This document shows, piece after piece, positions 3,123 through 7,441 of a stretch of 64,000 nt of DNA. Made by a program: the position numbers and the translations under genes. The DNA comes from Polyangiaceae bacterium. Its GTDB lineage: Bacteria > Myxococcota_A > Polyangia > Polyangiales > Polyangiaceae. The notes beneath the pieces were generated by a model. It was not told where the DNA came from and searched no databases. It saw only the letters and a list, made by a program, of their open reading frames with translations. Location of the stretch: positions 1 through 64,000 of the forward strand of contig JAHBVY010000011.1 of the NCBI GenBank assembly GCA_019637265.1, read 5' to 3'. The first letter of the stretch is position 1. Every line of letters begins with the position of its first letter.

Positions 3123-3193
3123 CACAGCGGCTCCAAGCGATCCTCCGTCGCGGCGCGGCGCCGCTCGGCTGAGCCCTCCCAACCCCTGATCCC
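3123..3193. repeat. Direct repeat copy 1 flanking the SNF2-SWIM pair
   Basis: About 71 bp that match 7370-7441 at close to 78 % by eye. The best-conserved parts are CGCGGCGCC and the end AGCCCTCCCAACCCC. The other copy covers the last codons and stop of the SWIM gene, so this copy may be a relic of such a 3' end. The surrounding 3098-3299 interval is otherwise featureless leader DNA. Confidence 0.6.
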
Positions 3194-3299
3194 GAACCGG
3201 CGCGTTGCGATCGAACCCCGCGAGGCGCTACCAGGTGGCCACGAGACCCACACGCCACGCCTCGCGAGCGCAGGCCACCCGTGGCATGGTGCCGCCGTC

Positions 3300-6200
3300 A
3301 TGCCGCTCGTGTTCTTGCCCGACCAGGAGGCGTTCTTCCTGTGGGGCGAGGCGCCGCTCCCAGCTGCCCTCACGAGGCTCGTGGAGCGCGCCAGCCACGC
3401 CACCGCGGCGCTCGTAACCGCGCGCGGCGTGCGCGACGTGGCGGGGCTCAAGCTGCCGCTCCTCAGCGCGACCGCCGCGCTCGCGGTGGTCCCAGCGGGT
3501 GAAGCGGACACACTATCAGGCTCGCTTACTATTTGGAGCCTCGCCAGTAAGCTCGCGCTGGATCTCGTGGCGCGCGAGCGCTTCGTCCCCACCCTCACGC
3601 GGCGCGGCCAGGCCGTCGAGGCGCGCTGGGCGGTAGCGCTCAACGCAGCGGACGACGCGGCGAGGGTGACGGCGCTCGCGAGGTGCATGCCGCCCGCGGC
3701 GCACGCGGTGCCGGTGCCGGGGCGCGGCGTGTGGGCGCCGGAGGCGCTGCTTCGAAGTCACCTCGACGCCGTAGCAGACGCGCTGGTTCGCGCCGGGGGG
3801 ATCCCGCCGGGACTACCCAAGGGCGTGGCTAAGCTCCCTCCGAAGAGCAGCCCCTGGCCCGAGCGTTGGTACGCGGCGCTGACTAGCTCTGAGCGCCGCT
3901 TCGAGACCGCGGGCTTCGCGGAGCGCTCGGTGATGGATGAGCTCGAGCGCTGGAGCGAGCCGCTGCTGGGCGCCCGCGATCGACTCCGGGGTTGCTTCCG
4001 GCTCGAGCTGCCGCCGACGGATCAGGCGCCGTTTCAGCTCCGGCTCTTGTTACAGTCCCCTGACGATCTGAGCCTGGTGGTGCCCGCCGCGGAGGTGTGG
4101 AGCGCGCGGGGGCCGAGCCTCGAGAAGCTGGGGCGCGCCTTCCGCGATCCGCAAGAGTCGCTGCTCGGGGCGCTCGGGCGCGCCGCGCGCGTGTTCCCGC
4201 CGCTCGCGTCTTGCTTGACCGAGGCGCGCCCCGAGAAGGTGGAGCTCACCCCAGACGCTGCCTGGGCGTTCCTGGATGAAGGCGCCGCGAGGCTCACCGA
4301 AGCTGGCTTCGGTGTCCTGGTGCCAGGCGAGCTGACCACGAGCGGCCAGCGGCGGCTTCGGCTCCGCATGCGCGTGGGCGGCAAGCAGAAGGAGACGCCA
4401 GGCGTGGTCGGCGGGGCCTCCGGCCTGCACCTGGACGCGCTCCTCCGAGTGGACTGGGAGGCGGTCATCGGCGACCAAGCGATCACGCGGCGCGAGCTGG
4501 CGCTGATCGCGAAGCAGAAGAGACCGCTCGTACAGCTCCGCGGCGCGTGGGTGGCGATCGATCCGCGTGAGCTCGGAGACATCCGCAAGCGCCTCGCCCG
4601 CGGCAGCTCACAGCTGAGCGCGCGCGAGGCGCTCCCCGCGGTGCTCTCAGGCGAGGTCCATGATGGTGACCTCCCCGTCCTTGTGACCGCCGGAGGCGCC
4701 TTCGCCGATCTCATCGAGCGGCTGCGAGGCGCTGACACCAAGGAGCTCGCGCCGCCCAAGGCGCTCCAGGCCACGCTGCGGCCGTACCAAGCGCGCGGGC
4801 TCTGCTGGCTCAGCACGATGGGCTCGCTCGGGCTCGGCGCCTGCCTGGCTGACGACATGGGGCTCGGCAAGACGATGCAGCTGCTCGCCTCCTTGCTGCG
4901 GCGCCTCGAGGAGTCACCGAAGGACACGCGCCCCGCGCTGCTGGTCGCGCCCACGTCGGTGGTCGGCAACTGGGAGCGGGAGGTCGCGCGCTTCGCGCCT
5001 TCGCTCGAGCTCACGCCGCACTACGGGACTGACCGCGCCCAGTCTCCCGGCGACTTCCCCAACCGCGCGGGCGCGCTCGTCATCACGTCCTACGGTCTGC
5101 TGCGCCGCGACGCCGCGCTGCTCTCGAAGGTCAGCTGGTCGGTCGTGGCCTTGGACGAAGCGCAGAACATCAAGAACGCGGCCTCAGCGACGGCGCGCGC
5201 CGCGCGCAGCCTGCGCGCGAGTCAGCGCTTCGCCCTGACGGGCACGCCGGTCGAGAACCGGCTCGCGGAGCTGTGGTCCATCTTGGAGTTCGCCAACCCC
5301 GGCCTGCTCGGCCCGCTCTCGGGGTTCACGCGCGACTTCGCGCTCCCCATCGAGCGCTACGGGGACGACCGCGCGGCCGCCCGCCTGCGCCGCGTCGTGG
5401 GCCCGTTCATCCTGCGGCGCCTCAAGAGCGACCAGAGCATCATCCAAGATCTGCCAGAGAAGCACGAGATGAAGGTGGTCTGCTCGCTGACGCGGGAGCA
5501 AGCCACGCTCTACAAGGCGGTCGTTGACGATGAGCTGCAGCGCATCGAGGCGTCGGACGGCATCGCTCGGCGCGGGCGCGTGCTCGCCTTGCTCATGTTC
5601 ACCAAGCAGATCTGTAACCACCCCGCGCAGTACCTGGGTGAGTCAGGGCCACTCATGAATCGGTCAGGGAAGCTCACGCGCGTGACCGAGATGCTGGAGG
5701 AGGCGGTGCTGGCGGGCGACAAGGCGCTCGTCTTCACCCAGTTTCGTGAGATGGGTGAGAAGCTGGTGGCGCACCTCAGCGCGAGCCTAGGTCGTGAGGT
5801 AGCCTTCCTTCACGGCGGCACCCCGAAGCGCGCCCGTGATGAGCTGGTGCGCCGCTTCCAAGAGGAGCCCCACGGGCCGCAGATCTTCGTGCTCTCGGTG
5901 AAGGCGGGCGGCACCGGCCTCAACCTCACCGCGGCGAGCCACGTGTTTCACTTCGACCGCTGGTGGAACCCGGCGGTGGAAGATCAAGCGACGGACCGCG
6001 CCTACCGGATTGGCCAACGACGCGCCGTCCAGGTGCACAAGCTGCTCTGCGCTGGCACGGTGGAGGAGAAGATCGACCGCTTGCTCGAGCAGAAGCGCGA
6101 GCTCGCCTCGAAGATCGTCGGCGCCGGTGAGCAGTGGATCACCGAGCTCGGCACGAGCGAGCTGCGGAGCCTGTTCGCGCTCTCAGAGAAGGCCGCCGGG

Positions 6201-6329: not shown

Positions 6330-7420
6330 GCTATCGCCGCTTCCGTTGGCCTAAAGCGGCGCCCAAGAAGCCGCCCCCCGAGCATGGCATCAAGGTGAAG
6401 GGCACCAGCCATACCTGGTGGGGAGAGCGTTGGATCTCAGCGCTCGAAGAGGTGCTGCAGGGGGACTCCGCGCGCCTCGCGCGGGGCCGCACGTACGCGC
6501 GCACAGGGCGCGCGCATGATCTCACGGTGACGAGCAGCGGGGTGAAGGCGAAGGTCACGGGCTCACGCGCCCGGCCTTACACGGTCACGATCCAGCTAAC
6601 CAAGCTCACCCACGCCGTGTGGCAGCGCGCCATCCGGCTGATGGCGGAGCAGGCGGCGTTCTCGGCTGAGCTGCTCGCCGAGCAAATGCCGCGCGCCATC
6701 AATGAGATCTTCCAGGAGGCGGGCGCGAGCCTCTTCCCCGAGCACCAAGGCGATCTAACGACGAGCTGCTCGTGCCCGGACTGGGGCGACCCATGCAAGC
6801 ACGTCGCGGCCACCCACTACGTGCTCGGCGCGGCGCTCGACAGTGACCCCTTCCTCCTGTTCGAGCTGCGCGGCCGAGGGAGGAGGGAGGTGCTCGAGGC
6901 ACTGCGCGCCGCCCGCGGCGCCGAGCCACTGGCGCCCCCCCGAGCGACGAAGGCGGCCACTGCCGAACAGCTCACCACGAAGGCAGCGAAGCGCGGAGGT
7001 AAGCGAGCAGCCAAGCCCCGGAGCGAGCGCACGGCGCCAGGCGAGCGCGCTGCCGCGAAGGGCGAAGAGAGCGACCGAGCGCCACGAGCACCAGCCTTCG
7101 CGGCCCCCAGTGAACCGGCGCCCACCGTGATGCTGAGCAACGTCACTTTAGCTGACTATGATCGCCTGCGGGCGCCGCTCCCCCCTATGCACTTCAGCTT
7201 CGCCCCACCGCGCGCGCCCGGCACCACGCTCGATCAGCTCGGGCCACTGACTAACTGGACAGCCAAGGGGAGCCCAGCCAGTCTCTTGTCACCGCTCTGC
7301 CAGCTCGCCTCAGAGCTAGCAGAGCAGCTAGCGACCGCTGAAGACGAGCCTGAGGAGACGCCTGAGCCGCACGGCGCCGCTCGGCGACCTTCCGTCGCAC
7401 CGCGGCGCCATTCGGCTTAG
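6326..7420 (+). CDS. SWIM zinc-finger protein paired with the SNF2 helicase
   Basis: A 364-aa protein with a SWIM zinc finger, C-x-C-x6-C-x-H (Cys148, Cys150, Cys157, His159), preceded by a β-rich domain. The tail from about 215 is low-complexity Ala/Lys/Arg followed by an acidic end. SWIM proteins are the regular operon partner of bacterial SNF2 helicases and probably mediate DNA or protein binding. The start overlaps the SNF2 stop by 4 nt. The last codons and the TAG stop lie inside the second ~71-bp direct repeat. Confidence 0.8.
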   Translation: MSYRRFRWPKAAPKKPPPEHGIKVKGTSHTWWGERWISALEEVLQGDSARLARGRTYARTGRAHDLTVTSSGVKAKVTGSRARPYTVTIQLTKLTHAVWQRAIRLMAEQAAFSAELLAEQMPRAINEIFQEAGASLFPEHQGDLTTSCSCPDWGDPCKHVAATHYVLGAALDSDPFLLFELRGRGRREVLEALRAARGAEPLAPPRATKAATAEQLTTKAAKRGGKRAAKPRSERTAPGERAAAKGEESDRAPRAPAFAAPSEPAPTVMLSNVTLADYDRLRAPLPPMHFSFAPPRAPGTTLDQLGPLTNWTAKGSPASLLSPLCQLASELAEQLATAEDEPEETPEPHGAARRPSVAPRRHSA

Positions 7421-7441
7421 CCCTTCCAACCCCCCGATCCC
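7370..7441. repeat. Direct repeat copy 2 flanking the SNF2-SWIM pair
   Basis: The counterpart of 3123-3193 in the same orientation. It begins in the coding end of the SWIM gene, contains its stop and continues into the short spacer, ending in CCAACCCCCCGATCCC. That end also belongs to the dispersed C-rich motif family of this window. Confidence 0.6.

Follow-up and report, generated by a model that had tools for sequence, protein, structure and literature searches.

Direct repeats around an SNF2-SWIM gene pair in a Polyangiaceae genome carry the tail of an abundant, lineage-restricted intergenic repeat family

Results and Discussion

Genes and repeats at the locus

The DNA analysed here, called the window below, is a stretch of 64,000 nt from a Polyangiaceae bacterium (genome G000), and its left part carries a two-gene operon for an SNF2 helicase and a SWIM zinc-finger protein (Table 1). 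Matches to PF00176, PF12419, and PF04434 in this pair were above the cut-off, and the two genes stand side by side. Upstream of the operon lies a candidate defence system, HEC-01 (PADLOC), in which, as in the described system, a HEC-01A ATPase gene and its HEC-01B partner are adjacent; both models were strongly matched (E values of 2.7e-127 and 2.4e-53), and the system adjoins the repeats described below, of which it is not a part. Between HEC-01 and the operon, a small gene overlaps a GNAT acetyltransferase gene; together they resemble an RHH-GNAT toxin-antitoxin system, with the RHH assignment made only by inspection.

Table 1. Features of the window discussed in the text
Feature	Position	Strand	Remarks
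Island part separating efp from its usual convergent neighbour	1..7604		remainder at C1:1-1808
HEC-01 candidate defence system	443..2202	-	AAA_21 ATPase 1054-2202; partner 443-1051
Small gene and GNAT acetyltransferase	2314..3097	+	small gene 2314-2583 overlapping GNAT 2573-3097
Left repeat copy	3114..3193	+	onset 17 nt 3' of GNAT stop codon
Tail box of left repeat copy	3171-3186		GAGCCCTCCCAACCCC
SNF2 helicase with DUF3670	3300..6329	+	PF12419, PF00176, PF00271; NCBIfam SCO1167/SCO6262-type helicase, below cut-off
SWIM zinc-finger protein	6326..7420	+	overlaps SNF2 by 4 nt
Right repeat copy	7361..7441	+	codes for last 19 codons and stop of SWIM; tail TAGCCCTTCCAACCCCCCGATCCC
Elongation factor P (efp)	7605..8213	-	conserved gene on the right side of the insertion
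Variant family member	16064	+	
Second long copy	31129-31284		
GTGCCGTCCAACCCC-variant family member	45300..45314	+	
Long family relative, ~180 bp	47802..47981	+	GCGGTGCCGTCCAACC...GGAGGGAGTGAACCCCC
GTGCCGTCCAACCCC-variant family member	60018	+	

The operon is enclosed by two direct repeats. Positions 3114-3186 and 7361-7433 are identical at 56 of 73 sites (77%) in an ungapped alignment of the same orientation with an offset of 4247 nt, and in a blastn alignment with one gap, the match reaches approximately 3193/7441, at 78% identity over 74 columns. This pair is beyond chance: when every offset in the 64-kb window was considered, almost every segment scoring as high or higher proved to be a duplicated segment or a tandem or low-complexity repeat in coding sequence. 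An earlier note on this DNA had described direct repeats of about 78% at 3123-3193 and 7370-7441 that enclose exactly the helicase and SWIM genes, the right copy holding the end of the SWIM gene. Our measurements (77-78%) and coordinates are close to these; both genes do lie between the copies, and the last 19 SWIM codons together with the stop codon TAG (7418-7420) are inside the right copy, the left copy reading GAG at the equivalent place.

An abundant repeat family, nearly absent from relatives

The last ~16-20 nt of both copies are a motif dispersed genome-wide, namely (G)AGCCCTYCCAACCCC followed by C-rich sequence. The repeat tail CCCTTCCAACCCC... is part of a high-copy, lineage-restricted family of intergenic repeats, in which a variable GC-rich head is followed by a constant tail, CCAACCCCC, and then by AAA or GATC and CCC. 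The statistics of this family were drawn from a 0.93-Mb sample (16% of the genome) and from pattern counts over the whole genome. In the whole-genome search, the 15-mer variant GTGCCGTCCAACCCC was found in 229 exact copies and its reversed-letter control in none; the same 15-mer occurred once in total among 58 related genomes and was absent from the same-genus genome (G001). The constant tail occurs 132 times in the sample, as compared with 28 times for its reversal, and about 60% of its sites are intergenic, though intergenic DNA makes up only ~13% of the sample (~87% being coding according to a crude gene caller). Family repeats occupy about a quarter of the intergenic regions of this genome; the orientation of members relative to genes varies, and some are located between divergent genes. 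Furthermore, CCAACCCC recurs in contig C3 and in other pieces of the assembly with differing sequences in front of it.

The tail-box subtype of the present pair, CGGMKGAGCCCTYCCAACCCC, was found at 15 places with up to 3 mismatches (3 for the control), and exact GAGCCCTYCCAACCCC is present at C1:575943, C19:63621, C1:19902, C17:206951, C19:2917, and C15:353957. A sequence model built from the pair scored 24.2 bits at C1:575940, the top match in the 58 relatives being 21.4 bits. The earlier note had made its reading depend on a genome-wide count of the repeat. By that count, the family as a whole turned out to be scattered and unlinked to these genes, and at its full length of 73 bp the subtype is represented by just these two close copies, with partial matches at C1:575940 and C19:63613. 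Rfam gave no matches in positions 1-9000 or 30500-31800 of the window, and nothing relevant was found in the literature on such repeats in myxobacteria. A viral origin was considered and rejected, the 19-mer of the main variant being absent from viral contigs and the GAGCCC variant giving two stray matches there.

How ordinary the pair is

When the intergenic regions of the sample were compared all against all (E<=1e-4), we obtained 816 matching pairs, as opposed to 26 with reversed sequence. The list includes the pair around SNF2-SWIM and also more than 20 unlinked tail-bearing pairs, which are 50-85 bp in length and ~72-89% identical. Two sites on one contig, C15:140971 and C15:180703, for example, are identical at 65 of 85 ungapped positions ending at the constant tail, and yet they are 40 kb apart in different gene contexts. 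Same-strand tail sites within 8 kb of each other bracket one to four genes 39 times in the sample, and the bracketing of a gene pair is therefore to be expected in this genome.

We accordingly judge it probable that the repeats are two old, diverged members of the lineage-restricted dispersed family, which happen to flank SNF2-SWIM in an acquired island of defence-type genes. The copies would enclose the two genes because such repeats fill about a quarter of the intergenic regions, and not because they move or flank the pair as a unit. Spread of the copies as elements is presumed here, though no RAYT gene was found; one copy lies just 3' of the RHH-GNAT operon and the other at the 3' end of SWIM, reaching into the gene, and the right copy may have supplied the final 19 codons of SWIM. 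The SNF2-SWIM operon itself is a separate matter, as it belongs to an island that was inserted where efp otherwise adjoins a conserved convergent gene.

The left and right copies are, nonetheless, each other's nearest known relatives. In the 57 nt before the shared tail box, they are identical at 42 positions in register, against a background mean of 16.9 (sd 3.8) across 15,223 tail-site pairs; over the stretch preceding the box, left and right score 27 with each other, as compared with 9-18 against other members of the subtype. Other GAGCCC sites share this upstream part poorly, and a genome-wide search with the 31-nt 3' half, at no more than 3 mismatches, found just two sites. As a special case of the dispersed-family explanation, a single element copy might have been duplicated locally in the island, the genes between playing no role; the two copies being closest known relatives, 4.2 kb apart and on the same strand, would fit such an event. 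An equally similar pair, however, is separated by 40 kb on C15, so the closeness of the two copies is not tied to linkage, and sequence closeness does not track distance. We thus regard local duplication as rather unlikely.

The 3' end of SWIM and a hairpin in the right copy

Another origin of the left copy was put forward in the earlier note, namely that it may be a leftover SWIM 3' end. Through duplication and loss, such a remnant could derive from an ancestral SWIM gene or from a second copy of SNF2-SWIM. SWIM does end within the right copy, the left copy sits where an upstream SWIM gene would end, and the copies resemble each other more than most members of the family do. The similarity, however, begins at 3114, comprises only 57 coding nt, and continues past the stop codon into the dispersed tail motif, and the differences at codon positions 1, 2, and 3 (7, 3, and 5) reveal no past coding constraint. 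No remnant of this kind was found at any related SNF2-SWIM locus; the SWIM tails of relatives, furthermore, resemble neither copy, a weak point given that such tails evolve fast. A SWIM remnant is hence improbable, and the claim was not borne out.

The right copy contains a 21-bp interrupted hairpin in three blocks (7362-7420) that ends on the SWIM stop codon, with a folding energy of -40.5 kcal/mol, a z-score of -6.3, and no equally good fold in 200 shuffles; a scan of the window placed it among the two strongest hairpins by z-score. As both copies are at the 3' ends of genes, the repeats could be imagined as terminator-type hairpins kept by selection at operon ends. The left copy, however, does not fold (z +1.3), a search for U-run terminators gave nothing at either copy, and the sequences upstream of the tail at 98 sites showed no folding advantage over random intergenic DNA (mean z -0.6 and -0.3, respectively). 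Members lying between divergent genes and in no fixed orientation also argue against this idea, to which we would give little chance for the pair; a terminator role is possible for the right copy alone and is not common to the family. The hairpin also brought an integron attC site to mind; this candidate was rejected on inspection only, the AAC/GTT core being on the wrong side and RYYYAAC/GTTRRRY unmatched.

An island next to efp and the SNF2-SWIM pair

In 10 of the 11 relatives examined, efp and a convergent gene are adjacent, with aligned ends at most ~140 nt apart, and in the same-genus genome G001 they are separated by ~90 nt. In G000, efp is located near the start of contig C3 and its convergent neighbour at the very start of contig C1 (C1:1814-3730), the two being split by an island. 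Counted from efp, the island consists of SWIM, SNF2, the RHH-GNAT-like pair, and the HEC-01A/B pair up to the unassembled end of C3, and then of an AAA ATPase gene at the start of C1; the join of C3 and C1 within the island is inferred from synteny. The AAA ATPase gene on C1 (612-1808) has a much lower G+C content (0.54) and forms the far end of the island, with 5 nt between its stop codon and the stop codon of the usual neighbour of efp.

The repeats do not coincide with the edges of this island. At the adjacent efp sites of relatives, the same-genus genome included, neither the repeat nor GNAT is present, and no site with one repeat and no genes was seen in the relatives examined. The empty site anticipated in the earlier note, a region lacking exactly one repeat plus the two genes, was thus not what we found; in relatives, efp is directly beside a different conserved gene.

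As in the known SWIM/SNF2 gene pair, the DUF3670-SNF2 gene here overlaps the SWIM gene by 4 nt; the pair is an ordinary one, distinguished only by its location among defence-type genes in an island. SNF2 adjoins SWIM in 23 loci, that of the window among them; in 16 cases SWIM was predicted as a full gene, and in the others it was detected by tblastn. The 23 loci have no generally shared flanking gene, and bracketing repeats were found at none of the 22 others. In one relative (G020), the pair is at C3:949-953 kb, away from an efp site on C2 that is still uninterrupted. SNF2-SWIM thus behaves as a two-gene unit that changes neighbourhoods independently of these repeats. Since the pair is conserved, changes its neighbourhood, and sits in inserted DNA, its mobility or transfer is plausible, with these repeats not being the vehicle.

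An identity of 77% is low for homologous recombination or att cores. That the repeats are recombination sites, att-like or homologous, making SNF2-SWIM an excisable cassette is accordingly the least probable reading and a very remote one: their shared orientation, their exact enclosure of the genes, and the unit-like behaviour of the pair with its unshared flanks in 23 loci and its separate place in G020 would suit it, but the repeats are only 77% identical, no recombinase gene was recognised between them, the pairs of relatives lack them, the empty site is situated elsewhere, and family members lie in unrelated intergenic regions with similar brackets around many other gene groups. In terms of the overall interpretation in the earlier note, therefore, the position of SNF2-SWIM in inserted DNA and a plausible transfer of the pair hold, and the repeats as cassette edges or as a SWIM remnant do not. 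A tempting but wrong signature of a mobile cassette is thereby removed, and the real insertion is placed at the efp junction in a defence-type island. Paired short repeats in this genome need to be judged against a dense dispersed intergenic background, and the analysis brings to light a family of abundant repeats that the tested relatives almost entirely lack.

A longer element and known classes of repeats

The same genome contains a longer element of ~165-180 bp (GCGGTGCCGTCCAACCRGCTCTTC...GAGGTCGAGGACCGTGA...GGAGGGAGTGAACCCCC), with nine copies in 0.93 Mb, two of them in the window, and none in the reversed sequence of the sample. Its ends and interior are conserved, and its left end is common to the 15-mer GTGCCGTCCAACCCC. 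Short copies with this 15-mer resemble the two ends of the long element joined together, and the long form could be the parent of the short family. One end of the long element is T-arm-like, yet no tRNA was called there, and a tRNA-derived repeat was rejected.

Like the REP repeats of the GTAG and CGTC superfamilies (PMC3733652), the present family is short, intergenic, present in more than 100 copies, and found in both orientations, some REP families being species-specific as well. It differs in that a conserved stem-loop carrying GTAG or CGTC at an unpaired end is missing and in that its constant part is a C-rich tail with varying heads. No match to the Y1 transposase/RAYT model (PF01797) was found in G000 (98.5% completeness), the control genomes being positive, and RAYT-driven REP of the GTAG type were hence rejected; CGTC REP repeats also lack a dedicated transposase (PMC3733652). 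The long element, with its conserved ends and interior, recalls a MITE; the nine aligned copies showed no obvious inverted ends, and no parent transposase was identified. We tentatively suggest, at somewhat less than even chances, that the repeats form an undescribed family, restricted to this species or strain, in which several interchangeable heads are combined with a constant C-rich tail and whose hundreds of copies were amplified after divergence from the nearest sequenced relatives without RAYT transposases, possibly from the ~165-bp form as parent.

The strand opposite to GTGCCGTCCAACCCC is G-rich (GGGTTTTGGGGGTTGG), and formation of a G-quadruplex on it is conceivable from its composition. 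A separate intergenic palindrome, GGGGCGGGTTTSAAACCCGCCC, is present in 14-16 sampled regions (e.g., C12:92331-92481 and C3:106619-107026). In the window, furthermore, positions 53808-54330 and 54870-55392 share a direct similarity of 523 nt at an offset of 1062, which probably represents duplicated gene segments.
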